The notes beneath the pieces were generated by a model. That model ran no database searches. It saw only the letters and a program-made list of their open reading frames with translations, and was not told the DNA's origin. Both the position numbers and the translations under genes were made by a program. From Acidobacteriota bacterium (GTDB lineage: Bacteria > Acidobacteriota > CAIWXX01): DNA of 32,055 nucleotides. Numbering within the stretch: position 1 is the first letter of the stretch; each line of letters begins with the position of its first letter. The stretch is from the NCBI GenBank assembly GCA_016191015.1, contig JACPPM010000073.1, positions 1-32,055 on the forward strand, read 5' to 3'. Below are positions 1,255 to 24,585 of this stretch, one piece after another.

Positions 1255-3054
1255 TCAGGGCCCTGCGACGGAGATTACCGTCAGCCCCCCGTCACGACCG
1301 TCCCCGGCGTACAGATACGGCTTGGCCCACCTCACGAGCGAAACGTCGAAGCCCGGCAGATAGGAGCCGAGCAGCACCGGCTTCGAACGATTAGAGACAT
1401 CGTAGGCATCGATGCCCGAGAACCGGCTCGCCAGGAACGCCCGTCCCCCGGAGACGCTCAGCGATCGCACGTACTGGGGCGGGGTGAGGTCGAGCGCCGA
1501 AAGGAGGAGAGGGGCGGCCGGAGAGCCGAGGTCGAAAACCGACAGAGATCCGAGGCCCGCGGCGAAGAGATAGCGCGTCTGCCAGGCGAGTCCGTACGTA
1601 CCTGTCAGCGGCACCTGCTTCGAGATCACCGGTGCGCCCGGTTTCGGGAGACTGATGACGAACAGGTCACTCCCGTTGCCGGCATAGGCGACATTTCCGC
1701 GCACGGCGATGCAGTCCACCCACCCGCCGAGCGCCAGCGAAGCAACGCGCCGCGGTTTCGCGGAATCGGAAACGTCGACGACGTCAATCCCGGCACTACC
1801 GCGCGCAACCACGGCGTTCGTCCCCAGAAGAGCCACCGCATATGCGGCGGCCGAGTACGTCCCGACCTGACGGACCGCTCCCGAGACGCTGAGGATCCGC
1901 ATCCCTCCGGTGCCACATGCCACGTAGGCCTTGCCGCCCGAGACGCGGGCATCCAGTGGGGAGCTGGAGAGGTCGAGCGATGAGCTGATGGTGATCGCGG
2001 ACGGGGATGAAATATCGAGCACGGAGAAGCCGTTGTGGAAGTCGGCGATGTACGCCTTGCCGGACGCTACATCCAGGGAACGGGCGACTCCGAGAGTACG
2101 GCGCCGGTCCTTGACGCGCGGCTCGCGCGCATCCGACACGTCCACCGTCACCAAGCCGGAGAAGTCAGAGGCCAGGTAGTACGTTGACTGCGACAGACTC
2201 CCATCTACAGCCGTCGTCGAAAGTGTCGAAAGGACCGATGGCGAGCGTGGATTGGAAACATCGAGGATGCTGAGTCCTCCGCCACCGTTGCAAACGTACA
2301 GCCTTTTCCCCGCCAGATCGAGATCCGCCGCGCGCCCTGGGAGGTTTTGCACGGCAACCTCGCGCGGAGCGAATCGGTCGGAGATGTCGTAGACGGCGAG
2401 CCCGCCGTCGAGCAGGGAGTCGTAGAGGTATGTGCCCGAGACAGTGAGACGGCCGTTGTAACGGACGTTTTCAAGCGACCCCGCGAATCTCGGGCTCTCG
2501 ATCGTCGCAATATCGTAGACACGGAGGCCGTTGACACCGTCGGAGACATAGAGAGCTCCGGCCGCGGCGACCACATCCTCCACGTAGTAGCTCTCAAAGA
2601 CGGTCGTGACGAGCCTGGGGTGATTTCGATCGGAATAGTCCACCAGGTACACGGCCCGGTTGCCCGCGACGACGAAGGCGTATGGATCCATGAGCTGCAG
2701 TCCCTGTGAGAAGCCGGCGAGCTGGAGTGTCGACGCCACACGAGGGGCGGTTGGGATGGCGACATCGACGATCACTAAGCCTGCGTCCGCGCAGGCGGCA
2801 TACACGTAACCGGCGGCGGCGCGCACTTTCCTTATCGCGCCAGGCAAAGTCAGCCTCGCCGCGTCTTTCTTCGACCGCAGATCGCGCACGATCAGGTCCG
2901 CCGCCTGGCTGTAGTAGAGGTAGCTACCCTGGACCTCTGCGGCCGACGTTCTCCCGCCAAAATGACCGGCGTTTGTGAAAACGAGGCCTGCGTCCGTTGC
3001 GTGCCCAGCCGGGCCAAGCGCGAGTCCGAGGAACAGGGCCGTCCATAGCCTCAT
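1255..3054 (-). CDS. Secreted LVIVD-repeat beta-propeller protein
   Basis: The protein has 599 residues if translation starts at the ATG at 3054. That start begins with a clean Sec signal peptide (MRLWTALFLGLALGPAGHA); an alternative ATG at 3105 would add 17 residues in front of it. The mature part is built from roughly ten to eleven units of about 42 residues, each with the pattern G-L-x-V-x-D-[VI]-S-x-x-x-x-P. Examples are GLVIVDVAIPTAPRV, GLSILDVSNPRSPSV and GIDAYDVSNRSKPVL. This is the LVIVD repeat (Pfam PF08309), known to form a beta-propeller in exported or cell-surface proteins. No enzymatic motif is visible, so a binding or scaffold role is the best inference. It is the last gene of the leftward block, 131 bp after the solute-binding protein gene. 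The unit count is by eye. Confidence 0.88.
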   Translation of the reverse strand: MRLWTALFLGLALGPAGHATDAGLVFTNAGHFGGRTSAAEVQGSYLYYSQAADLIVRDLRSKKDAARLTLPGAIRKVRAAAGYVYAACADAGLVIVDVAIPTAPRVASTLQLAGFSQGLQLMDPYAFVVAGNRAVYLVDYSDRNHPRLVTTVFESYYVEDVVAAAGALYVSDGVNGLRVYDIATIESPRFAGSLENVRYNGRLTVSGTYLYDSLLDGGLAVYDISDRFAPREVAVQNLPGRAADLDLAGKRLYVCNGGGGLSILDVSNPRSPSVLSTLSTTAVDGSLSQSTYYLASDFSGLVTVDVSDAREPRVKDRRRTLGVARSLDVASGKAYIADFHNGFSVLDISSPSAITISSSLDLSSSPLDARVSGGKAYVACGTGGMRILSVSGAVRQVGTYSAAAYAVALLGTNAVVARGSAGIDVVDVSDSAKPRRVASLALGGWVDCIAVRGNVAYAGNGSDLFVISLPKPGAPVISKQVPLTGTYGLAWQTRYLFAAGLGSLSVFDLGSPAAPLLLSALDLTPPQYVRSLSVSGGRAFLASRFSGIDAYDVSNRSKPVLLGSYLPGFDVSLVRWAKPYLYAGDGRDGGLTVISVAGP

Positions 3055-3185
3055 GCACCAATTCTGGCCTCTCCTGCCGCACGGTTCAAGGGAAAGATTG
3101 TGCATCAGATCCTTCGTCGCCTCCCCCCACCCGTCCCGACTCCACGGATTGACGGGATCGCTGTCCAGGCCGCTTACCTGTCAGC

Positions 3186-4661
3186 TCACTGGGCGAAGGT
3201 CCAAAGGTTTTGTTCGCGCGTAAACCTGTAGGTATCACCGATTATGGCCGGCGCTACGATGGTGAGCCGGCGCGAAACCCCCATGGGGATGCTGTAGGTC
3301 AGCAGGGGGAGTGACGGGAGATCGTCGCAGATCGTCCGCTGAATCAGGCCGTAGCTCCGGCGCTTCTCTTCTCCCGGGAGCAAATCGGCGGCTTTTGCAA
3401 AGAGATCGTCCACATCCCGGTTCCTGTAGGCGCTCACGTTGTATTCGCTGTTCGAACGGTACAGGTTGCCGACATCGTCCGGGTCAGCCGAGAACGAGAA
3501 GCCGTAGATGGCGCAGTCGAAATCGCCGGAGAAGAGCCTCTTCTCGAAGAGCCCGCGTTCCAAAGGGACCACGACAGCATCGATCCCGAGATGGTCGATC
3601 AGCCCTTGCTGGATCACCTGCGCGATCTGCCCCCGCTTGCTGCTCTCGGAGTTGTAGAGGATCGCGAGACGGGCGGGCATGCTCTGGAGGTCGCGCCCGC
3701 CCAACCCTGAAGGGGGATCGAAATCCGGGACGGTGGCGCTGTCATCCTTCCACTCACCGTCCAGAAACGCACTGTCGACCACGCGGCCGCGTCCCCAATA
3801 GAGGTACCGGACGATCTCCTCCCGATTGACGCACCGCGCAATCGTTCGCCGGACGGAGAGGCTCGTCAGCCGATTCATGTTGAAAAACAGGAGCTCCACC
3901 GCTCTCGTCGGCACGGAAAGGACTCGCACCCGAGAGACCATGTCCGGATCTCCCTCCGCCTCCCGCAGGAGATCCATCGGGATCTCGGACAAGTCCGTCG
4001 AACCTGCGGCAAGCTCGAGGTACTGCGTCGTCGGATCGGGGACGGTCCGGCAGCAGACGGCTGGAATCGCCGGAGGCTGGCGATGGTAGGACGGATTCGC
4101 GAGGAGAGTGATGCTGCCGGCGTCCCGATTGCCGGCTCGGTAGAAGCCGGTTCCGATCGGGTTGTGATCCAGATCTTTGACATGGGCCGGGAGGACGCGC
4201 GATGTGAGCGCGTGCAGGATCGCGAACGACGGCCGGTCGAGGTGGAAGGTCACATCGGGCCAGGCCGCCACGTCCACTCGACCGATCGTTTTGAACGGAG
4301 CCGAAAACGGATACTCATCCGAGCTGTACCTGCTGATCGTCTCGACGATGTCGGCCGGCGTGAGCGGCCGGCCGTCGTGCCACATGACATCCGATGAGAA
4401 GCGCAGCGACACCCTCTCGGGCGTCGCCTCATGGAGGATCGCAAGATCCGGCGCGAGCCTCCCGGCGCCGTCGTAGCGCAGGACCCCGCTGTAGACACGT
4501 CCGAGCATCTCGTGAGCGACATCCGAGAACGCGGCGACCGGATCGAGGGACTCCGGGGAGCTGCGATACGACTCGACGATCATGCCGGTCTTCGGATTTC
4601 GCACACCCCGGCATCGGGATGCCAGGAGCGCGCCCGCGCATAGGAACTCCCGGCGCTTCAA
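3186..4661 (-). CDS. Family-5 extracellular solute-binding protein (peptide/nickel ABC type), orphan
   Basis: The protein has 491 residues and matches the length and layout of SBP_bac_5 proteins, which bind oligopeptides or nickel and deliver them to ABC permeases. Visible family hallmarks are ESLDPVAAFSD near the N-terminus, the segment VMWHDGRPLTPADIVET, and a late DPDDVGNLYRS region. The N-terminus MKRREFL followed by a short hydrophobic stretch looks like a twin-arginine signal. A Cys at residue 17 is preceded by ASR, which is a poor lipobox. The start codon is TTG, 13 nt after the stop of the upstream CARDB gene, with no strong Shine-Dalgarno sequence. Translational coupling is therefore likely. 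No permease or ATPase partner lies nearby, so the substrate cannot be inferred. Confidence 0.9.
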   Translation of the reverse strand: MKRREFLCAGALLASRCRGVRNPKTGMIVESYRSSPESLDPVAAFSDVAHEMLGRVYSGVLRYDGAGRLAPDLAILHEATPERVSLRFSSDVMWHDGRPLTPADIVETISRYSSDEYPFSAPFKTIGRVDVAAWPDVTFHLDRPSFAILHALTSRVLPAHVKDLDHNPIGTGFYRAGNRDAGSITLLANPSYHRQPPAIPAVCCRTVPDPTTQYLELAAGSTDLSEIPMDLLREAEGDPDMVSRVRVLSVPTRAVELLFFNMNRLTSLSVRRTIARCVNREEIVRYLYWGRGRVVDSAFLDGEWKDDSATVPDFDPPSGLGGRDLQSMPARLAILYNSESSKRGQIAQVIQQGLIDHLGIDAVVVPLERGLFEKRLFSGDFDCAIYGFSFSADPDDVGNLYRSNSEYNVSAYRNRDVDDLFAKAADLLPGEEKRRSYGLIQRTICDDLPSLPLLTYSIPMGVSRRLTIVAPAIIGDTYRFTREQNLWTFAQ

Positions 4662-6880: not shown

Positions 6881-7825
6881 TCACGGCACGATCCGGGTCC
6901 CGGCCCGTCTCAGGAGCGCTGAACCGAGCTTCTCGGCACACGTGATCAGCACCTCCGAACCGCCCCCTTCGATATAGTTGATCGCCGCGCGGATCTTGGG
7001 ACCCATACTGCCGGCCGGGAACTGACCTTGCTCGAGATATTTCTTCGCCTCCCGCAGGCGCAGCACAGGCAGGGGTCGCTGGTTCTTCTTCCCGAAGTTG
7101 AGGTAGACCGTCTCGACCTCCGTCAGGATGATGTAGAGATCCACCTTCAGCTCGGCCGCCAGTAGCGCGCTGGCGTAATCCTTGTCGATGACCGCCTCAA
7201 CTCCCTGAAGCAGTCCCCTGCCATTGATGAATACCGGGATCCCGCCTCCGCCGGCCGCCACGACGATCTTTCCTTCGCGGACCAGCTTCCCGATCGCATC
7301 CTTCGGCACCACGTCGATCGGGCGCGGCGAGGCCACGACCTTCCGGTACCCTCGCCCGGCATCTTCGACCATCCGCCATTTCTTCTCCTTCATCAGCGCG
7401 AGGGCACGGTACTTGCTGAAGAACGGACCGACCGGCTTGGTCGGATTCGCGAACGCCGGGTCGTCCCTGTCGACGATCACCTCAGTCAGAATCGTGATGA
7501 CCTCCTTGTCCAGACCGGCCTTGCGAAGCTGATTGGTCAGGGCCATCTCGAGCATGTAGCCCATGCTCCCCTCGGTCTGGGCCACACAAATGTCCAGACT
7601 CAGCGGCGGCACCTTCGTGATCGCTTCTTCGACCTGAATGAGGATGTTCCCAACCTGCGGGCCGTTGCCGTGCACCAGAATCAGCTCAAACCCCTTGCGG
7701 ATGATCCGCATCATCAGCCGTGCCGCTGAATCCGCGTTGCGGAGCTGCTCCATCTGCACTCCGCGCTCATTCGATCTGATCAGCGCGTTCCCGCCGAACG
7801 CGATCAGAGCAACTTTTCTAGCCAC
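6881..7825 (-). CDS. arcC: Carbamate kinase
   Basis: The protein has 314 residues, the usual size for the family. It converts carbamoyl phosphate plus ADP to ATP, ammonia and bicarbonate. Family motifs seen are the N-terminal strand and loop ALIAFGGNAL, the phosphate-binding HGNGPQVG, AQTEGSMGYMLE, VVASPRPIDVVPKDAI, AAGGGGIPV and the late PAGSMGPKIRAA. It starts with GTG; an ATG is not available nearby and the Shine-Dalgarno sequence is weak. It sits between a COG2403-type GTPase gene (84-bp gap) and argF. Together with argF it would make ATP from citrulline through carbamoyl phosphate. Confidence 0.96.
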   Translation of the reverse strand: MARKVALIAFGGNALIRSNERGVQMEQLRNADSAARLMMRIIRKGFELILVHGNGPQVGNILIQVEEAITKVPPLSLDICVAQTEGSMGYMLEMALTNQLRKAGLDKEVITILTEVIVDRDDPAFANPTKPVGPFFSKYRALALMKEKKWRMVEDAGRGYRKVVASPRPIDVVPKDAIGKLVREGKIVVAAGGGGIPVFINGRGLLQGVEAVIDKDYASALLAAELKVDLYIILTEVETVYLNFGKKNQRPLPVLRLREAKKYLEQGQFPAGSMGPKIRAAINYIEGGGSEVLITCAEKLGSALLRRAGTRIVP

Positions 7826-9325: not shown

Positions 9326-9510
9326 CTGAGATTCGGAGGACACTTTGCCGCAGTACAGCCAGCATGTCATCCTGAGGCTCGGCGCAGCCGGGCAGAAGGA
9401 TCTCCTGCAAGACCCGTAGCCCATGGAGGAGATCCTTCGTCACCGGGCTTCGCCCGGCTCCTCAGGATGACATTGCGCGCATGCCCGTGTGCGTCTACTC
9501 CGAATCTCAG
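9326..9510. repeat. Palindromic dispersed repeat element, full copy (MITE/REP-like)
   Basis: This 185-bp element fills most of the gap 9230-9550. Its ends are a perfect 13-bp inverted pair, CTGAGATTCGGAG at 9326-9338 and its complement at 9498-9510. Inside lie a perfect 14-bp pair (9364-9377 and 9460-9473, ATGTCATCCTGAGG) and a perfect 12-bp pair (9395-9406 and 9427-9438, GAAGGATCTCCT). The right half (9423-9510) recurs in reverse orientation at 13633-13720. It encodes no transposase, and any open frame through it is a by-product of the repeat. Confidence 0.85.
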
Positions 9511-13632: not shown

Positions 13633-13720
13633 CTGAGATTCGGAGTAGGCGCGCACGGGCATGATCGTAACGTCATCCTGAGGAGCCGGGCGAAGCCCGG
13701 TGACGAAGGATCTCCTCCAT
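13633..13720. repeat. Half copy of the palindromic dispersed repeat, inverted
   Basis: These 88 bp match the reverse complement of 9423-9510 with about six mismatches by eye. The last 45 bp, including the hairpin GAGCCGGGCGAAGCCCGG, are identical. It begins with the same CTGAGATTCGGAG end and abuts the next repeat at 13722. Confidence 0.85.
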
Positions 13721-13721
13721 A

Positions 13722-13989
13722 GTGTCTAAGAAGTTGAGTGCTGACACGAAATGGCAAAACGTTCGAGTGGGTGAGATCCTCGGAACCCCTCTCAGGAAAG
13801 CAGGAAGGGAGGAATGCAGGAACGGAGCAGTCATCTCCGGAGCTCAGCGTGGCATCGAACAGACCCCTTCCGGCCTTCCTAACTTCCTGCCTTCCTGAGA
13901 GGTGCTCGGAAGGGTCTTGCAGCGTGCCTGGGTCTTGCCTGTTTGGTTGCGTCTCCGCCGCGTTAGCGTCCAAGAAGCTGAGTACTGAC
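13722..13989. repeat. Dispersed repeat, copy 1, with internal inverted arms
   Basis: Positions 13722-13939 match 31838-32055 with about 15 differences in 218 bp by eye, roughly 93 percent. Inside, CCTCTCAGGAAAGCAGGAAG (13788-13807) pairs with 13883-13902 with one mismatch in 20, giving a long stem. The leading segment at 13724-13745 (GTCTAAGAAGTTGAGTGCTG and two more bases) recurs at 13968-13989 with three differences, so a second unit seems to begin there and break off. No protein-coding evidence is seen. Positions 13526-14046 otherwise hold only the promoter and the repeats. Confidence 0.85.
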
Positions 13990-14046: not shown

Positions 14047-14076
14047 TTGACACCCGGACCGATGGGGTCCTATATT
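14047..14076 (+). promoter_or_regulatory. Near-consensus sigma70 promoter for the VWA/tubulin-like operon
   Basis: TTGACA (14047-14052, 6/6), an 18-bp spacer and TATATT (14071-14076, 5/6) are seen. The expected transcription start is near 14083. An in-frame GTG sits exactly at 14083, so translation could begin without a leader. Otherwise the ATG at 14149 would have a leader of about 66 nt. This is the only strong promoter before the three-gene operon. Confidence 0.7.
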
Positions 14077-14148
14077 CGCCTCGTGATCCCCGCTCGGCCG
14101 GACCGCATCGCGCACATGTTTCCGACTCTCTCTGAGGCAGCGAGAAGC

Positions 14149-15657
14149 ATGAGAGTGCCGGCTTTGGCCCTCGGGATCCTCCTGTCGATTGCTCCGCCAA
14201 CCCGAGCGGACCGCCAGCGAGCCGGAAGCATCGATGCGTTTATCGTGCTGGACGAGTCAGGGAGCATGAAACCGATCTTTCAGAAAGTGCTTGCCTACGT
14301 CTCGGAGGAGCTCGTCGTCGGGTACCTCCAGCCCGGGGACTACTTCTGTCTTGTCGGCTTTAGCGACGTGCCGCATGTGCGGATCAGCCAGCAGGTTTCG
14401 TCCCGGGCGGAGAAAGAGAACCTGGCCGCGATCGTGCGGAACCTGAACGTGGTCCCCGCGGGGTACACCGACATGGGGCGCGCCCTCGAGGAGACGCTGC
14501 GCCAAGTGACGACTTTGGCAGATTCGTCGCATCAGCAGGCCGTCCTGATCATCACCGATGGGATGAATCAGCCCCCGCGCGAGAGCCCCTACTTCAGCCC
14601 CATGCGCTCGGACACCGGCCGGGGTCTCGCCCCACCCTCGGGTTTCAATCCGGCCTTCCTCGCGCAGGTGAAGAAGCTCTCCGAGGCCGGCTGGCGCACG
14701 CATGTCGTTGGCATCGGCAGCGAGACAGATGCCAAGACACTCGCCGAAGCACTTGGAAGCGCATGGACAGTCTTGCGGCAGTTCGACGCCGCCGAACTGC
14801 AGGCAGGCCTGGGCAACTTCTGGGACGAGACGCTGAATCTCGCCAGCCTCGAAATGCCTCAGCGCCCGTATCTCCCCGGCGAGACGATCAGCGGCCACGT
14901 GTTCATCTCATCCGCATCGGACCATGAGCGCGAGGTGCATCTGAGCGGAGTGAAGAGCGTGAAGTTGGAGAGGGTTGGAAATGGCAGCCTACCGGGGATC
15001 TCGTTTTCCCTTGCCGAATCGAACTGGCAAATTCCCGCCCGCAAGAAGGCGGCGTTCGAAATCCGGGCCTCTCTCCCTCCGGACTTCCCCCCAGGAGACT
15101 ATAGCGCGACCGTCCGGTTCGAACAGACAAGCGCCGTGCGCTTCTATCCTCCTGAAGCGACCATCGCGTTCCACGTGCCTGGCTTCTGGGAGCTGCACGG
15201 TACTACGATCGTAGTTTCCTCGACGGCGCTGCTGATTCTCGCGATCTCCCTCCTGCTCTATCGTCGCCGCCCCGTCGCGATGATGGTCATCGTGGATGGC
15301 GCCGAAGGTGCGCACGCTTCGCGCCCGGCGCGACTTGGCGTCGCCGGAGCGTGCAGTGTGGGCGGAGGCGCCACCGACCGCATGCGCATTCCCGGGCTCC
15401 CCCAGAAGGTCGCGATGTTCGAACGCCGTACGGTCAACCGTTTCGCGCTGCTCTCGACCAGTGCGACACATATTCCGACGATCCCTGAGTACGCGCTGGG
15501 CGACCCGATCGAGGTGCGTGTGGGACCCGGCGAATCCGACCGCCGACTCGTGCGAATCGTCCGCTGGACCCGGCCGGCTACGGCAGGCAAACGGCCGGCG
15601 ACGCCGCGCTCGCCGGTCGTGCCCCCGCCCGCATCCGGAGGCGTCGACTTTCGCTAG
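14149..15657 (+). CDS. Membrane-anchored von Willebrand factor A domain protein of the tubulin-like cassette
   Basis: From the ATG at 14149 the protein has 502 residues and opens with a compact Sec signal peptide (MRVPALALGILLSIA). In-frame starts at GTG 14083 and ATG 14116 would add 22 or 11 residues. A VWA domain covers roughly 28-210, with an intact MIDAS: DESGS at 35-39, a Thr in YTDMGRALEE and IITDGMNQ. A beta-sandwich-like region follows. A single transmembrane helix lies near 352-373 (VVSSTALLILAISLLLY, followed by RRR), then a soluble tail of about 130 residues. The positive charges after the helix place the VWA domain outside the inner membrane and the tail in the cytoplasm. There, the tail could meet the tubulin-like protein encoded 21 nt downstream. 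VWA domains with a MIDAS bind protein partners through a metal ion. Confidence 0.9.
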   Translation: MRVPALALGILLSIAPPTRADRQRAGSIDAFIVLDESGSMKPIFQKVLAYVSEELVVGYLQPGDYFCLVGFSDVPHVRISQQVSSRAEKENLAAIVRNLNVVPAGYTDMGRALEETLRQVTTLADSSHQQAVLIITDGMNQPPRESPYFSPMRSDTGRGLAPPSGFNPAFLAQVKKLSEAGWRTHVVGIGSETDAKTLAEALGSAWTVLRQFDAAELQAGLGNFWDETLNLASLEMPQRPYLPGETISGHVFISSASDHEREVHLSGVKSVKLERVGNGSLPGISFSLAESNWQIPARKKAAFEIRASLPPDFPPGDYSATVRFEQTSAVRFYPPEATIAFHVPGFWELHGTTIVVSSTALLILAISLLLYRRRPVAMMVIVDGAEGAHASRPARLGVAGACSVGGGATDRMRIPGLPQKVAMFERRTVNRFALLSTSATHIPTIPEYALGDPIEVRVGPGESDRRLVRIVRWTRPATAGKRPATPRSPVVPPPASGGVDFR

Positions 15658-15678
15658 GCATTTCATCGGAGGTGTTGC

Positions 15679-18639
15679 GTGCCGATCACTCCCATCATCG
15701 TTCTCGGTATCGGGGGCACGGGCATGAAGGCCCTGCTCCAGCTAAAGCGCATGATCGCCGAAAGCCGCGCCGGGGGCCTGAAGAGCCTTCCCGCCGTGCG
15801 GCTGCTCTGCATTGACTCCGACGATCTCATCCGCCCCAAGGCCTCCCCCGATCCGCACATCGCCATCGAGGATATCTCTCTGGATCCGGTCAACGAATTC
15901 CTGAAACTGGATATTCCCGGAAACGTCTCTTATGCGGATCTGGACCGAGCGCGGTCGTGGTTCCCGAAGGAGCTCGAGTATTACATCCCGGACCTCTCGA
16001 CGGGCTGCAAGCAGTACAAGCCTCTCGGAAGGCTGCTCTTTGGCTGGAACTACCCGAAGGTTTTGAAATTGGTCGAGCCGCTGCGGGACATGGTCGATAG
16101 CGCACTCCTGCGCAAGCTGGGGGTCACACAGGTCGAAGATCCGATGATCTTCATCGTCTCATCGCTCTGCGGCGGCACCGGCGCCGGCATGTTTCTGGAC
16201 GCGGCATACATGCAAACGAATCTGTGGAAGCGAAAGTGGAGCAGGTTCAATACGAAAGTATGCGGTCTGCTGGCGCTCCCGAGCGTCTTCGCTGACATTA
16301 CGCAGGCAAGCGAGCGGATTCGATCGAACGCGTATGCGTCGATGAAGGAGCTGGATCACTTCATGAACAAAGACGTGTACATGGACCCCGAGCGTGCGTT
16401 CCGCTCGGACTATCCCTATGTGGAGCATCCCGAAGTCTATCAGGCGGCACCCTTCGATCGTGTCTTCCTCTTCGACAACAGTAACGGCCGAGTGAGCGTG
16501 TCATCCGCCCAGATATACGAGATGATGGCGCGGTACATTTATCTGATGGCCTGCGGCGAGCTGACGCAGGAATACAACAGCCTGGACAACAACCTGAACC
16601 CGACGGTGCGCGGAACTCACCGGCTGCTCAACAAGCCTACCTGCTACTCGTCGTTCGGCTACTACTCGGTGGTCTTCCCCAAACGCACGGCGCTGCAGCT
16701 CGTCGCTGCCGACCTCGCGCTCGACCTCGTCCAGGAAGAGCTGGCATCAGCCACCGATCAGCGCGCCGTCGACCAGGTGGCCGATGCGTTTCTCACGGCC
16801 TGCAAGATGTTCTTCGGCACCCAGTCTCCGCAGATCCTCCACTCGCTCTCACAGTACACGAACGCGTCGGGCGAGCGGGTGAATATCCAGGACACGATCT
16901 CCGGCACGATCGCCAACATCGACCTTTCGGCCGAACAGCCGGAGAATTTTGAGGGAATCCTGCGCGAGTACGACACGCGCCTCACGAATACCGATCTCGC
17001 GTTGTTCGAAGCCGACTGCAGGCGAGACGCGCAGGAGCTCCTTCGCGCCTTTCGGGCGAAACTCGAGCTCCAGATCCAGGAGCTGGCGGATCCCTCACGG
17101 AAGGGAAGCGTGTTCCAGGCGCACCTGTTTCTGGAGGAGCTTGCGCGCGAGGTCGAAGAGGATATCGCGGCGCTCACCGGCATGCTCCAGCAGACTGAGA
17201 CGCAGCTCCCGGGGCTCAAGAGCGCCCTCGAGACTCAGCTTCTGAAGATCAGAGAGGCCGGCGCTTCCCGGAGCCTCCTTACGCGGATCAACCTTCGCCG
17301 CACGATGGCGGCTCTGCTGGAGGAGACGAAGGAGAGGTTTGAGAGCTTCTGGCTCGCGCGGCGCAAAGCGACGATTCTCCAGAACGCGATCGCCGTGTAC
17401 AAGGGCGATCCCTCGTCGCGCGAGCCGGACCTGCGTTCGGGCGCACTCGAATCGATCCTCCGTGAGCGTGACCACTACCGCGCCAAGGTGGCGGTGTTGG
17501 AGCGGGCGCGCGAACGGTTCCTCGAGACTATCCGCGCGCGTCGGTCGGTGGCTGAGGGAGATTTCACAAAGATCGTCTTCGACTACACCCGGGATATCGA
17601 GCCGATGGTGCAGGAGGTGAAGGCGCGCCGGGGCGCGCTCGCCGCGGTTAGGGCGCAGGTGCGAAGCCCTGGTGTCTTCGGTCCGGACCTCGACGGACTC
17701 ACGGCTGTGCTCGCCGACCAGGCCATTCTGCGGCTTTCGGACCTGTGCGCGGCCGCGTATCAACCCGTCGTGGACGCGTGGTCGTTGGATGAGTGTGTCG
17801 CCGGCCTGGGTGACGTAGGGACGTTGGTGAAAACGTGGTTGAACTTCTCACGGCCGTTTCTCATGCTCGACAGCGTCGATGCATCGAAGTACGGGTTCGG
17901 CGAGGAGCACAATGCGGCGCGGTTCATCGCGATTCCGCATACGTATGTGGGGAAGCCGTGTGAGCAGATCCTGAATCGGTGCCCGGTTTCAGGAGTGGCT
18001 GAGTGCGACCGGTGGCCGCGATGTCTGAAGCGTGCGATCCTGGAGGTGCTGCCGCGAGGAACGAGCGTTGGTCACATGGCGGGGCGCCACGAGATCCATT
18101 TCCTGTCGCTCTATCACGGGGTCGCCGCCAGCAGCCTGATTCACCTGATCAGCGAATCCGCCGCCGTGTACCGCAACCACCTGCTGGCCAGCGAGAAGAT
18201 TCACATGTTCGGCCCGCTCGCGCTCTATGACCTCCGTGAGCCGCTGCCGAACAAGACGCTCGAGCGCATGAAGGATCTCTTCTATCTCTCCTTCGCCACC
18301 GGGTCGATCGCCTGGGACGACCGCGAGGAGGTCTTCCGGTTTCGAGCCGACGCCGATGTCGAGCTGAAGCTGCCCCCGAGCATTCCGCTGGGGGCCGACA
18401 TCGTGGCTGTTCTCGACAACTTCCACTCTCATGAAGGCGTGACGGCTCAGGCGGTCGCAGAGGCTTTCACCGTGATGGATCGTCGGATCGTCGATCGGTG
18501 CCGGTCCGACGCGCGAGGTCTCGGCCAGGAGGCGCTCACCTTCATACGCGGCAACGACGTGCCGCTCGACGACGACGAGAAGCGGCGCCTCTACAGCCTC
18601 GGAAAGGAGCTGGCGGAGGGGCGATGCAACAGTATCTGA
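15679..18639 (+). CDS. Tubulin/FtsZ-like GTPase (Tubulin_2 family), large bacterial form
   Basis: The protein has 986 residues. It starts at GTG with GGAGG 7 nt upstream, 21 nt after the VWA gene. The N-terminus IIVLGIGGTGMKAL (6-19) is the first nucleotide-binding loop. SSLCGGTGAGMF at 161-172 is the tubulin/FtsZ signature loop (GGGTGS/TG type). CIDSDD at 44-49 follows the second strand. This is the arrangement of the Tubulin_2 family (PF13809). About 440-650 is rich in helix and coiled-coil heptads (FLEELAREVEEDIAALTG), and a further domain of about 330 residues ends the protein. It lacks FtsZ-type size and tail. Related proteins encoded with VWA proteins have been proposed to form a membrane-remodelling system. 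It probably polymerises or switches with GTP, but this is inferred from the fold. Confidence 0.9.
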   Translation: MPITPIIVLGIGGTGMKALLQLKRMIAESRAGGLKSLPAVRLLCIDSDDLIRPKASPDPHIAIEDISLDPVNEFLKLDIPGNVSYADLDRARSWFPKELEYYIPDLSTGCKQYKPLGRLLFGWNYPKVLKLVEPLRDMVDSALLRKLGVTQVEDPMIFIVSSLCGGTGAGMFLDAAYMQTNLWKRKWSRFNTKVCGLLALPSVFADITQASERIRSNAYASMKELDHFMNKDVYMDPERAFRSDYPYVEHPEVYQAAPFDRVFLFDNSNGRVSVSSAQIYEMMARYIYLMACGELTQEYNSLDNNLNPTVRGTHRLLNKPTCYSSFGYYSVVFPKRTALQLVAADLALDLVQEELASATDQRAVDQVADAFLTACKMFFGTQSPQILHSLSQYTNASGERVNIQDTISGTIANIDLSAEQPENFEGILREYDTRLTNTDLALFEADCRRDAQELLRAFRAKLELQIQELADPSRKGSVFQAHLFLEELAREVEEDIAALTGMLQQTETQLPGLKSALETQLLKIREAGASRSLLTRINLRRTMAALLEETKERFESFWLARRKATILQNAIAVYKGDPSSREPDLRSGALESILRERDHYRAKVAVLERARERFLETIRARRSVAEGDFTKIVFDYTRDIEPMVQEVKARRGALAAVRAQVRSPGVFGPDLDGLTAVLADQAILRLSDLCAAAYQPVVDAWSLDECVAGLGDVGTLVKTWLNFSRPFLMLDSVDASKYGFGEEHNAARFIAIPHTYVGKPCEQILNRCPVSGVAECDRWPRCLKRAILEVLPRGTSVGHMAGRHEIHFLSLYHGVAASSLIHLISESAAVYRNHLLASEKIHMFGPLALYDLREPLPNKTLERMKDLFYLSFATGSIAWDDREEVFRFRADADVELKLPPSIPLGADIVAVLDNFHSHEGVTAQAVAEAFTVMDRRIVDRCRSDARGLGQEALTFIRGNDVPLDDDEKRRLYSLGKELAEGRCNSI

Positions 18640-20693
18640 TCATCGGCCTGAACGACTTCGGCGGGCGTGTCATCGAGCGGGCGCGCGCGCTGCCACTCGA
18701 TGCCAGCATTGTCTACCACAGGCTGGATTGCGCTGCCTGTCCTGTCGAGGGTACGTACCTGGAGTATCGCAGGCAGCTGCTGGATGTCTTGAACCACGAG
18801 GTCTACAATTTCTCGAACACGCATCTCACGGTGTATCTGGCCGGGCTGCTGATCCAAGAGCACATGGCAGACGATCTGATCCATCTCGGCTACCTTTTCA
18901 AGACATTCTTCCGTGAGAACATCATCCTCAACCCGCGGATGAAGGTCCTCACGGCCATGCCGGCGATCATTCCCGAGGAAGCCTACGGGTGGCTGCCGGC
19001 AACACAGCAAGCGCTCGGGAGAATCGACCATTTCGCGTCGCTGAAGGAGCCGTTCCAGCCTGCCTATACGGAGGTGCAACGAGCGCTGCCATCCATCTCC
19101 GGCCCGCCCTTCGACGAGATCGTGTTCTGCTACTCTGAGTCGCTGGACGACGAGGACCTGGCGGTGACAGCTCAAGCTGCCGCGACCAAGATCTATTTCG
19201 ACATCGTCGTCCTGCCGGCGCGGGCTGGGGCCGAGGAGAAGGTGGCTGAGTTTTACCGCAACCCCCCGGCCGCGCAGGGGTACGCGCCCGTCACCGGGAC
19301 ATCAGTAGCGTTCATGCCGTCCCTCAGGCGGCTCGTCGCAGACGAAATGGAGCTCATGATCGCGTCGCGTCTCTGGGATCGCTTCCTGCCTGCCGAGCCG
19401 CCGCGATCCGCCGACATTCTCGATCGCGTTGACGGCGTGTTGGAACAGATCGGTGCGCGACAGATCCGTGAGGTCGTTGCAGGGATTGTGACACAGGCCC
19501 TCGAGCGTGAGAAATGGTTCGATCTCGCGGCTCTGGACACTCTGGCTGCCTACAACGTCGAGACGTCGCTCGCTCCGGACACGTGTCTTGCCGGCTTCAT
19601 GCAGACGCTCGAACGCGAGCGCAACCGGTATGCGGGACGCGTGCGGGACCTCGTGATCGATGCGATCGAGAGAATGCCCGAGCGGCTGGCCGCGGCGATC
19701 CGGGAGAGGCATCCCGAGATGGATCTGCGCGAGATCGACACGCTGTTCACCTTCGCCTTCCACAAGCTCGCCGATCTGCCGGCCCAGTCTCGATCCCTCG
19801 CCCAGGAAGCCCGCGACGAATTGGACCGGGCGCGACGGGAGATCGGGGTGAAAACCGCTCGCCTTCGTGAGATTGTCTCCGCGAGATCGGCGCGAATGAA
19901 AAAGGGCGGCGAGACGGAGGCCAGGATCCGCGAGGTGCTCGAGACGGTGAGCGTGGGCGCACTGCTGCGCTGCGGATTGATGGTGACTGCAGCCGAGGCT
20001 GTTTCGCAGGATACAACACTCGATGGGCGAATCCGGGAAAGCTACGCCCGCATGCACGCAATGTATGAACAGTATCTCGGACGGCGGCCCGAGCTACTGG
20101 CGCACTTCGCCAACAGGCGTGATGCCTATGTGGCGCGTGGCGAGTTGTCGCTCTTCGTCCTGCGACAGCTCTTCCGCCGGCGGCTTCTCGATGCACAGAT
20201 CCACGCGAAGATCGACGGCCTCCTTCAGGATCCATCCGCGCAGCCGCTCCGATTGCTCGCCGGGAAGTTCCTCTTCGAGAAGTGGTGGCAGCAGCCGGAC
20301 ATGCCGTTGGATGAGGTCGAGCGAGGGATGATCGAATCGGTTCGAGTCCTGGCCGGGACTCATGTCGAGCGAATGACCGAGGAGCTGACGGTGGACCACC
20401 GCGAGCTGGGGCACGTGTTGCGAGATGTGGCGCGGGATCAGGCCGGTGCCATCTTCGATCGCAAGTACCTCGAGCACCCCCAAGCGGCATTCCGTGAGGC
20501 GATCTTTGTGTGTCATAAAGAACCGGATGTCTCCGCGGCCCTCGCCGACGCACCCTTCGCCAACCCGGACCTCACCGATGTCGCCCACGTCCCGGCACTC
20601 CCCTACCAGGTCCTGCTCGTCTCCGAGCTCTACAATCTCCCCTTTCGCGCCTTGCGACAGTACGACTCGATGGCCCGGGGGAAGGTCGAGTGA
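18624..20693 (+). CDS. Partner of the tubulin-like protein; probable degenerate tubulin-like paralogue
   Basis: The protein has 689 residues. The start is ATG 18624, overlapping the end of the tubulin-like gene by 16 nt, with GGAGG just upstream, so the two are translationally coupled. No annotated family was recognised at first sight. By eye, blocks of the N-terminal 255 residues line up in the same order with the tubulin-like protein. YLIIGLNDFGGRV (4-16) matches IVLGIGGTGMKAL. VYLAGLLIQEHMADD (70-84) falls where SSLCGGTGAGMFLD lies. MKVLTAMPAI (106-115) matches TKVCGLLALPSV. PPFDEIVFCYSES (161-173) matches APFDRVFLFDNSN. VAFMPSLRRLVADEM (228-242) matches VVFPKRTALQLVAAD. The GGTGAG loop is lost, so it probably cannot bind GTP in the usual way. 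A helical coiled-coil stretch lies near 400-440. Confidence 0.75.
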   Translation: MQQYLIIGLNDFGGRVIERARALPLDASIVYHRLDCAACPVEGTYLEYRRQLLDVLNHEVYNFSNTHLTVYLAGLLIQEHMADDLIHLGYLFKTFFRENIILNPRMKVLTAMPAIIPEEAYGWLPATQQALGRIDHFASLKEPFQPAYTEVQRALPSISGPPFDEIVFCYSESLDDEDLAVTAQAAATKIYFDIVVLPARAGAEEKVAEFYRNPPAAQGYAPVTGTSVAFMPSLRRLVADEMELMIASRLWDRFLPAEPPRSADILDRVDGVLEQIGARQIREVVAGIVTQALEREKWFDLAALDTLAAYNVETSLAPDTCLAGFMQTLERERNRYAGRVRDLVIDAIERMPERLAAAIRERHPEMDLREIDTLFTFAFHKLADLPAQSRSLAQEARDELDRARREIGVKTARLREIVSARSARMKKGGETEARIREVLETVSVGALLRCGLMVTAAEAVSQDTTLDGRIRESYARMHAMYEQYLGRRPELLAHFANRRDAYVARGELSLFVLRQLFRRRLLDAQIHAKIDGLLQDPSAQPLRLLAGKFLFEKWWQQPDMPLDEVERGMIESVRVLAGTHVERMTEELTVDHRELGHVLRDVARDQAGAIFDRKYLEHPQAAFREAIFVCHKEPDVSAALADAPFANPDLTDVAHVPALPYQVLLVSELYNLPFRALRQYDSMARGKVE

Positions 20694-21543: not shown

Positions 21544-22872
21544 ATGGGCCTTCATCCGGTCCTGGCGGAGAAACTGAGCACTGCACTGGCAGTCGTGTCA
21601 CCAATCGCGCTCACCCGGCGCGACGCCCGGCTGCCCAGGGTAGCGGGGAAGGTGCACGCGGTGATCGGGATGCGCCGCACCGGGAAGACCATGTTCCTGC
21701 TTCAGTTGCTGAGCGAGCACCGGGAGTCAGCTGCTGGAGCCGAGCGGGCGATCTACCTCAGCTTCGACGACGATCGGCTGGCCGGGCTAGAACTGGAGCA
21801 GCTCGGATTCCTCCTGGAGGAGTACTACCGGCGCTACCCTGCGCTGCGCGGGCGCGAGACGGTGAACTGGTTCCTGGACGAGATCCAGCTTGTGCCCGGA
21901 TGGGAGCGCTTCGTGCGACGCGTGATCGACTCCGAAAAGATCGAGATTGCCGTCTCCGGCTCCTCCGCGCGGATGCTCTCGCGCGAGGTCCATACCTCGC
22001 TGCGCGGGCGCGGGATGGCGACCGTCATCCGGCCTTTCAGCTTCCGCGAGTTTCTGCGCCATCACGGCGAGGAGCCAGAGAAGGAGCCACGGCGCTGGAC
22101 TCCTGCCGATCGGTCGCTGATCGAGAAACGTTTTCGCGAGTACCTCGTCGAGGGTGGGTTCCCCGAAGTGCAGGGAGTGGCGGCCACGCTGCGGATTGAG
22201 CTCTTACAAGGTTATGTGGACACGGTTCTGTTTCGAGACGTAGTCGAGCGCCATGGGGTGTCGCAAGTGGCCGCGCTCCGCTGGCTCGTGCGCCAGTGCT
22301 TACGCAACCCGGCCGGGAGCTTCAGCGTCCACCGGCTGCACCGGGACCTGAAGGCTCAAGGGCACGGTGTGGCCAAGGATGCCGTGCACGCGATGCTCGG
22401 CCATCTCCTGGATGCTTTCCTGCTCAGCGCCGTGCCGCTGGTCACCGAATCGGAGCGACAGCGCAACTCGAACCCGCGCAAGCTTTACCCTGCGGACCCC
22501 GGTCTCATCAAGGCCTTCGACGCCAGTGGCCGCTCAAACATCGGCCACGCGCTCGAGACCGCAGTGTTGAACGAACTGGAGAGACGCGGCGCCGAGGTCG
22601 GCTACGTCAGGACGGGCGAGGGGCTGGAGGTCGACTTCCTCGCGCGACGGACGACAGCGGGAGAGGAGCTGATCCAAGTGTGCGTGGACCCATCTTCCCC
22701 AGGGACCCGCGAGCGTGAACTGCGCGCTCTGGCGACGGCAGGGAAGGAACATCCACGTGCGACGCGGCGTGTGTTGGTGCTCGACCGCGACAATCTCATG
22801 CGGACCGAAGAGCCGGGGACGGAGGTACTCCCGGCCTACGAATGGCTCCTCGCTGCGCAGAGGGATCACTGA
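21544..22872 (+). CDS. AAA ATPase with DUF4143 C-terminal domain
   Basis: The protein has 442 residues. The AAA_14-type ATPase domain has Walker A GMRRTGKT (42-49), a YLSFDDDRL segment, Walker B WFLDEIQ (109-115) and the sensor-like SGSSARML (138-145). The MATVIRPFSFREFL region that links to the second domain follows. The DUF4143 half (about 200-380) contains the line EYLVEGGFPEVQ and ends in a restriction-nuclease-like fold marked by LEVDFLAR. Such proteins are common, patchily distributed and of unknown function. They are frequent near mobile or defence genes. It is monocistronic here, with its own promoter and seemingly no 5' leader. Confidence 0.92.
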   Translation: MGLHPVLAEKLSTALAVVSPIALTRRDARLPRVAGKVHAVIGMRRTGKTMFLLQLLSEHRESAAGAERAIYLSFDDDRLAGLELEQLGFLLEEYYRRYPALRGRETVNWFLDEIQLVPGWERFVRRVIDSEKIEIAVSGSSARMLSREVHTSLRGRGMATVIRPFSFREFLRHHGEEPEKEPRRWTPADRSLIEKRFREYLVEGGFPEVQGVAATLRIELLQGYVDTVLFRDVVERHGVSQVAALRWLVRQCLRNPAGSFSVHRLHRDLKAQGHGVAKDAVHAMLGHLLDAFLLSAVPLVTESERQRNSNPRKLYPADPGLIKAFDASGRSNIGHALETAVLNELERRGAEVGYVRTGEGLEVDFLARRTTAGEELIQVCVDPSSPGTRERELRALATAGKEHPRATRRVLVLDRDNLMRTEEPGTEVLPAYEWLLAAQRDH

Positions 22873-24292: not shown

Positions 24293-24483
24293 CCTCGCTC
24301 CAGGCACGCCCCGCAGTTTGTTCGATAGGGTGTCCACATGTGCTGATGTGTGGGGAGCACTGCCCGCCGGCGATGCATGGACGTGCCCCGGAGTCGGTCT
24401 GCATCATCCAAATCAGGGCGCCGATGTCGGGTTTCGTGCTCATGGTTCGTTACTCGCGTAGGCGTCGTGATGAGTTTACCACC

Positions 24484-24516
24484 GCCCAAATCCGCGGCCA
24501 AGCCGCGGATTTGGGC
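24484..24516. repeat. Perfect 14-bp palindrome with 5-nt loop
   Basis: GCCCAAATCCGCGG (24484-24497), a 5-nt loop and the exact complement (24503-24516) form a very stable hairpin. A run AATTCAAAATTCAAAACTC follows directly. It lies 70 nt past the stop of the leftward gene 24586-25458 and could end or protect that transcript. No U-tract follows on either strand. Confidence 0.75.
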
Positions 24517-24585
24517 AATTCAAAATTCAAAACTCAAAACCGGAAACTGCTCGGTCAATCACCGGGCGCGGCGTGCTCGGGTCGC

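Follow-up and report, generated by a model that had tools for sequence, protein, structure and literature searches.

It was found that an acidobacterial genome of 6.4 Mb carries a tightly packed trio of plus-strand genes for a membrane-bound vWA protein (VWA), an intact tubulin-like GTPase of the Tubulin_2 type (TUB) and a third protein (THIRD) which, judging from profile comparison and a predicted model, is very probably a diverged tubulin-fold protein lacking the GTP pocket (a probable pseudo-tubulin). The three genes lie in one entire contig of 32,055 nucleotides, called the window here. Since the trio recurs in several phyla, it looks like a conserved machine, linking a signal to a filament or switch, and not a local oddity. 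I found no prior description, in the open-licence literature, of a pair of an intact and a pocket-less tubulin with matching trees and no accessory GTPase.

The features of the locus are listed in Table 1. An earlier note, made from the sequence alone, had proposed three ORFs with 21-nt and -16-nt spacing behind a near-consensus promoter, and all of these were located as described. The spacer of 21 nt between the VWA stop codon (15657) and the GTG start codon of TUB (15679) holds the Shine-Dalgarno sequence GGAGGT, and a Shine-Dalgarno-type sequence, GGAGGGG, precedes the ATG start codon of THIRD (18624). The promoter is the best of three promoter-like sites in 11 kb, where 1.5 would be expected by chance. 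An ORF finder chose TTG 14047 as the start codon of VWA. This choice was rejected; the TTG belongs to the -35 hexamer of the promoter, and therefore the start codon is ATG 14149. The 34 extra residues that the TTG start would add are not conserved in L052, a contig of a Vicinamibacteria MAG and the nearest named relative.

Table 1. Features of the three-gene locus (positions in the window)
Feature	Position	Strand	Basis or remark
Sigma-70-like promoter, TTGACA-18-TATATT	14047..14076	+	11/12 consensus match; first hexamer begins with TTG 14047
VWA gene, 502 aa	14149..15657	+	Pfam VWA 1.6e-10; 53% identity to L052; hydropathy
MIDAS motif DESGS, VWA residues 35-39	14251..14265	+	Intact DxSxS
Single strong membrane helix, VWA residues 352-370	15202..15258	+	Hydropathy
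VWA cytoplasmic tail, 132 aa	15259..15654	+	Follows helix 352-370
TUB gene, Tubulin_2 (FtsZ-like) GTPase, 986 aa	15679..18639	+	PF13809; CetZ-like model
TUB T1 loop GIGGTG, residues 10-15	15706..15723	+	Loop sequence
TUB T4 loop GGTGAG, residues 165-170	16171..16188	+	Loop sequence
TUB/THIRD gene overlap, 16 nt	18624..18639	+	TUB stop 18639, THIRD ATG 18624
THIRD gene, 689 aa	18624..20693	+	Putative N-terminal pseudo-tubulin domain and helical C-terminal part; no TM helix
THIRD degenerate T1 loop GLNDFGG	18645..18665	+	Alignment to Tubulin_2 profile
THIRD degenerate T4 region GLLIQEHMADDL	18843..18878	+	Alignment to Tubulin_2 profile; GGTGxG lost

The neighbours of the operon in the window are sulfatase, hydrolase and ABC-transporter genes, and the window contains no Rfam family or tRNA. 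No kinase, GTPase or OmpA gene was matched in the three-gene operon or the scanned surrounding genes, which agrees with what the earlier note had said of GTPase and OmpA genes. A dispersed short repeat of about 58 nt (13663-13745, 9423-9477 and about 40 further places, with 44 genome matches) resembles a REP/MITE-type element; some copies form inverted pairs, and one lies just 5′ of the operon. Two copies of a 218-nt direct repeat, 94% identical, lie just before the operon promoter (13722-13939) and at the contig end (31838-32055). Thus, the assembly broke in the repeat, and the operon sits inside the 18 kb between the copies. An ATPase gene of the AAA_14/DUF4143 type (21544-22872; PADLOC candidate PDC-S01) lies 0.85 kb past the operon and has a promoter-like site of its own. 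A PDC-S01 gene is also found directly 5′ of the trio in Meiothermus taiwanensis (L094); its presence near both trios is probably a coincidence because the family is common. Further downstream, an intergenic imperfect 28-bp inverted repeat (24471-24529; 79% complementary, 3-nt loop) is terminator-like, its T run being unchecked.

The VWA protein consists of a signal peptide, a vWA domain, a beta-rich region, one TM helix and a cytoplasmic tail. The signal peptide is predicted from inspection of the sequence and from the hydrophobic N-terminus of the L052 equivalent. The intact MIDAS and the single membrane helix announced by the earlier note were both seen, and its topology, with the vWA domain outside and the tail in the cytoplasm, agrees with the hydropathy. 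The DESGS motif, the subsequent Thr-Asp (YTDMG) and the TDG are all kept in L052. This plan, with the vWA domain outside, one TM helix near the C-terminus and a tail of about 89-133 residues, also holds for most equivalents in other acidobacteria, Nostocales, an Ignavibacteriota MAG and Thermaceae, an exception being the 1023-aa protein of L037. When the tails of the cyanobacterial and two acidobacterial equivalents were compared with the PDB, four weak matches were obtained, all of them FHA domains (best E 0.044), which suggests an FHA-like fold for such tails in cyanobacteria and acidobacteria. Homology of the window VWA tail to the FHA-like cyanobacterial tails was not detected. In the acidobacterial MAG locus L079, the gene 5′ of the tubulin pair (3043-4278) encodes a signal, a TM helix and a tail but no recognisable MIDAS.

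TUB was assigned to Tubulin_2 (PF13809) with an E-value of 1.2e-52 and 179.8 bits, above the gathering score of 27, and has both glycine-rich loops. Beyond the N-terminal domain, the remainder is long, helical and coiled-coil. The mean pLDDT of an AlphaFold2 model from a nine-sequence alignment is low, at 48; the first 80 residues reach about 75, and values for the remaining GTPase domain are moderate. In VIA-align, this model matched CetZ best (Z 17.5, 2.5 A, 162 residues) and then tubulins and FtsZ; in Foldseek, CetZ2 was the sole match below 0.001. The structure search that the earlier note had proposed for TUB thus came out in favour of its tubulin assignment. Searches of the TUB sequence against solved structures gave nothing, and the family profile gave chance helical matches only. 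TUB is a member of the Tubulin_2/FtsZl1 family, with an FtsZ/tubulin N-domain fold in the predicted model. Since the genome encodes a separate conventional FtsZ, TUB is not the division protein. Close homologues of TUB were absent from 60 near relatives. Elsewhere, a Tubulin_2 relative with 28% identity (E 6e-19) is encoded at 6934-7824 of MT836542.1 (H14), a 9.8-kb unannotated record from human faeces filed as phage, which may be a misfiled bacterial contig rather than phage.

THIRD has no match in Pfam (including the PF13809 gathering score), NCBIfam or PADLOC; it is therefore termed a divergent relative here, not a Pfam member. The earlier note had called it a degenerate tubulin, and the profile comparison bears this out. 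A profile of two sequences (THIRD and its L052 counterpart) scored 66.8 against a Tubulin_2 profile of 17 proteins over THIRD residues 67-277 (E 3.6e-7 for one comparison), and 56.9 when the window TUB was left out of the latter. In the controls, 40 block-shuffled decoys reached at most 30.1, the reversed profile 20.4 and unrelated real profiles 14-25. In the alignment, HLTVYLAGLLIQEHMADDL stands opposite the S4 strand and the GGTGSG loop, and the motifs RIDHF and PPFDEIVFCY are in register with ELDHF and APFDRVFLFD, respectively. The model of residues 1-309 (pLDDT 67.5, pTM 0.68), built from an alignment that included Tubulin_2 rows and hence biased that way, has strands and helices in the FtsZ order. 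The structure search proposed for THIRD held in part: in the structure aligner, every listed row was a CetZ, an FtsZ or a tubulin (best Z 12.7), while the best matches of Foldseek alone included both FtsZ/TubZ, at a probability close to 1, and chains of the G-alpha and flavodoxin-like kinds. No close homologue of THIRD was found in 149 genomes of the phylum, and THIRD as query gave no match among plasmids.

Is this trio common elsewhere? L052 carries the trio in unchanged order, and the identities to the window are 53% for VWA, 67% for TUB and 48% for THIRD. The dN/dS values against L052 are about 0.32, 0.19 and 0.30, respectively, with dS of 1.3-1.5. Thus, all three genes are maintained by purifying selection and are more than chance ORFs. 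The gap between the VWA and TUB genes is 270 nt in L052, and therefore a single transcript is not universal. PF13809 was above the cut-off in 20 of the 347 genomes of the phylum. I collected 63 Tubulin_2 loci from this phylum survey, the genome contigs of all species and plasmids. A degenerate second Tubulin_2 gene lies directly 3′ of the first in 28 of these, and 23 of the 28 also have a VWA gene directly 5′ (the loci counted as lacking it include some cut by contig ends). This order of VWA, intact tubulin and degenerate tubulin was found in Cyanobacteria, Acidobacteriota and Ignavibacteriota. The earlier note had asked for such a neighbourhood survey and had taken the third component for an addition specific to this locus; it is instead a recurrent partner across a whole branch of such operons. 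The same note would have abandoned its reading if TUB had no tubulin fold or if the genes parted in relatives; both were examined, and neither occurred. In filamentous cyanobacteria, the trio sits among ordinary chromosomal genes in many species.

The profile of the second tubulins matches Tubulin_2 with an E-value of 1.4e-34. The GGTGxG loop is kept by nearly all first tubulins and by none of the 31 second tubulins longer than 800 aa (one locus being entered twice). In the tree of N-domains, ten second tubulins form one branch (90/93), and their branching mirrors the order among the first tubulins: L076, for example, goes with L040 and L077, and L036 with the cyanobacterial L054 and L057. This mirroring points to one ancient duplication, after which the pair was inherited together. 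THIRD has 689 residues against about 1000 in the long second tubulins, and lacks their hydrophobic segments. A single origin of THIRD and these longer proteins was neither supported nor rejected by the tree test (p-AU 0.24). Near residues 585-680, the long second tubulins of L054, L057, L076, L077 and L079 have one or two strongly hydrophobic segments, which would fit a pseudo-tubulin that is itself anchored in the membrane.

Another version of the trio was found on Thermaceae plasmids. The plasmids of Allomeiothermus, Meiothermus taiwanensis and Thermus oshimai have genes in the order vWA, tubulin, a 677-686-aa protein and brxL, and a Thermus thermophilus plasmid has kept the third protein and brxL after a truncated tubulin. 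The Thermaceae tubulins nest within the branch having long second tubulins (100/98). Thus, the third proteins of about 680 aa are probably shortened second tubulins; profile comparison found no relation of them to tubulin or to THIRD, and their assignment follows position, size and the tree place of their tubulin. The sets lie in defence islands. An IS copy is inserted before brxL in Allomeiothermus, Hma genes and the PDC-S01 gene flank the M. taiwanensis trio, and CRISPR type I-C genes flank the T. thermophilus set. In Allomeiothermus pMESIL01 (L091, 6233-14916), two same-strand ISMesi2 copies bracket the trio like a composite transposon. In T. oshimai, a TROVE-domain gene (L095, 6700-8175) lies directly 5′ of the vWA-tubulin-third-brxL set. 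BrxL was not found near trios in the other loci searched, nor among the window ORFs of at least 120 aa.

Other pairs of tubulin-fold proteins are known: alpha/beta-tubulin, BtubA/B and AtubA/B are encoded or used together and have unequal nucleotide roles. Compared with these pairs, one putative partner here seems, from its sequence, to lack the pocket altogether. Operons of vWA and FtsZl1 genes were described by Makarova and Koonin (2010; PMC2875224), who proposed membrane remodelling, and the earlier note had described this work accurately. The window resembles those operons in having a vWA gene with an intact MIDAS directly 5′ of a Tubulin_2/FtsZl1 gene, and TUB resembles the FtsZl1 proteins in its N-terminal GTPase domain with intact loops, its coiled coil and its helical C-terminus. 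However, the window operon has no gene for a protein kinase, a separate GTPase or OmpA; one of these is frequent but not universal in such operons. A degenerate-tubulin third protein is also not described in its main text, although some of the trio genes may figure among the unnamed associated families of its supplement. The same authors noted that the T6-H7 elements are not identifiable in this family. It is therefore doubtful that such proteins polymerise via the usual contacts, and filament contacts may be unusual. Kaur et al. (2020; PMC7159879) described GAP1-N2 GTPase-centric conflict systems. In Firmicutes, such a system encodes two tubulins, each ending in a coiled-coil tail, and a vWA protein placed in the membrane with its vWA domain extracellular. 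The window likewise has two tubulin genes, one of them degenerate, and a membrane vWA gene, but the three-gene operon itself lacks the GAP1 GTPase, the FNIII protein and the second vWA gene of those systems; one tubulin here has no GTP loops, and the phyla differ. BREX is touched by the brxL gene after the equivalent trio in Thermaceae, whereas no further BREX gene was seen in the Thermaceae operon itself and the window has no brxL. In the open-licence literature, I found no experiment, function or solved structure for any Tubulin_2 protein and no link between tubulin and BREX.

The chances seem about evenly balanced that the trio is a membrane signalling device of three parts, with the tubulin pair at its core. 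I infer for it an interaction of TUB with THIRD, GTPase activity of TUB, assembly, a role of the tail and a biological purpose, as follows. The vWA protein would span the inner membrane, exposing its metal-dependent ligand-binding domain to the outside and keeping a tail of about 130 residues inside. TUB and THIRD would form a heterotypic complex, which the tail may recruit or release. TUB would bring the intact GTP pocket and the long coiled-coil and helical extension, and THIRD, having lost its pocket, might serve the GTP-dependent assembly or switch of TUB as a fixed partner, be it nucleator, cap or adaptor. Thus, an event at the cell surface would start or stop assembly at the membrane.

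The trio may instead be a conflict system directed against phages or mobile elements, where the vWA protein or the tubulin pair senses an attack, GTP-driven assembly gates the response and BrxL is the downstream DNA-acting part in some lineages. This is a serious alternative because of the BrxL neighbours in Thermaceae, where four plasmids have the third protein beside brxL (three complete sets and one with a truncated tubulin), and because Kaur et al. (2020) assigned vWA proteins and tubulin pairs to conflict systems centred on GTPases; Hma and PDC-S01 genes around one Thermaceae set and CRISPR type I-C genes around another also speak for it. Nevertheless, it is somewhat unlikely, and it overlaps with the signalling device. 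BrxL is absent from all non-Thermaceae loci searched, the window included; the sulfatase, hydrolase and ABC-transporter genes around the window operon and the ordinary chromosomal surroundings of the cyanobacterial trio speak against conflict; and none of the three proteins has a PADLOC model. A more specific version, with TUB and THIRD joined in an obligate active/pseudo-tubulin heteropolymer or switch within a vWA-gated conflict module that recruited BrxL in Thermaceae, appears doubtful.

Filaments of FtsZ-like proteins anchored by vWA might also deform the inner membrane, as part of a remodelling or vesicle machinery. The vWA and FtsZl1 core is that of Makarova and Koonin, VWA is membrane-bound, and the long second tubulins of other phyla have their hydrophobic segments. 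On the other hand, the missing OmpA, kinase and GTPase genes and the lack of a membrane segment in THIRD count against such a machinery, and filament formation is a predicted role; the reviewers of that paper voiced like doubts. I regard remodelling as rather doubtful. Finally, THIRD could be an unrelated helical scaffold occupying the place of the second tubulin. THIRD was unranked by a single-sequence HMM search besides lacking a Pfam match, and the similarly short Thermaceae third proteins could not be related to tubulin by profile comparison. However, the profile score of THIRD far exceeds the decoys, the match is collinear across 200 residues with motifs in register, and the predicted strand and helix order is Rossmann-type, all of which makes a mere scaffold very unlikely.

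Tubulin_2 proteins have been known since 2010, and the trio makes their role and polymerisation directly testable: an intact TUB, a pocket-less sister and a receptor-like vWA protein make up a minimal three-gene system open to reconstitution. If the proposed pairing is true, TUB and THIRD would be an ancient counterpart in bacteria to the unequal pair of alpha- and beta-tubulin, and such an active/dead pair of bacterial tubulins would bear on the origin of unequal tubulin pairs.
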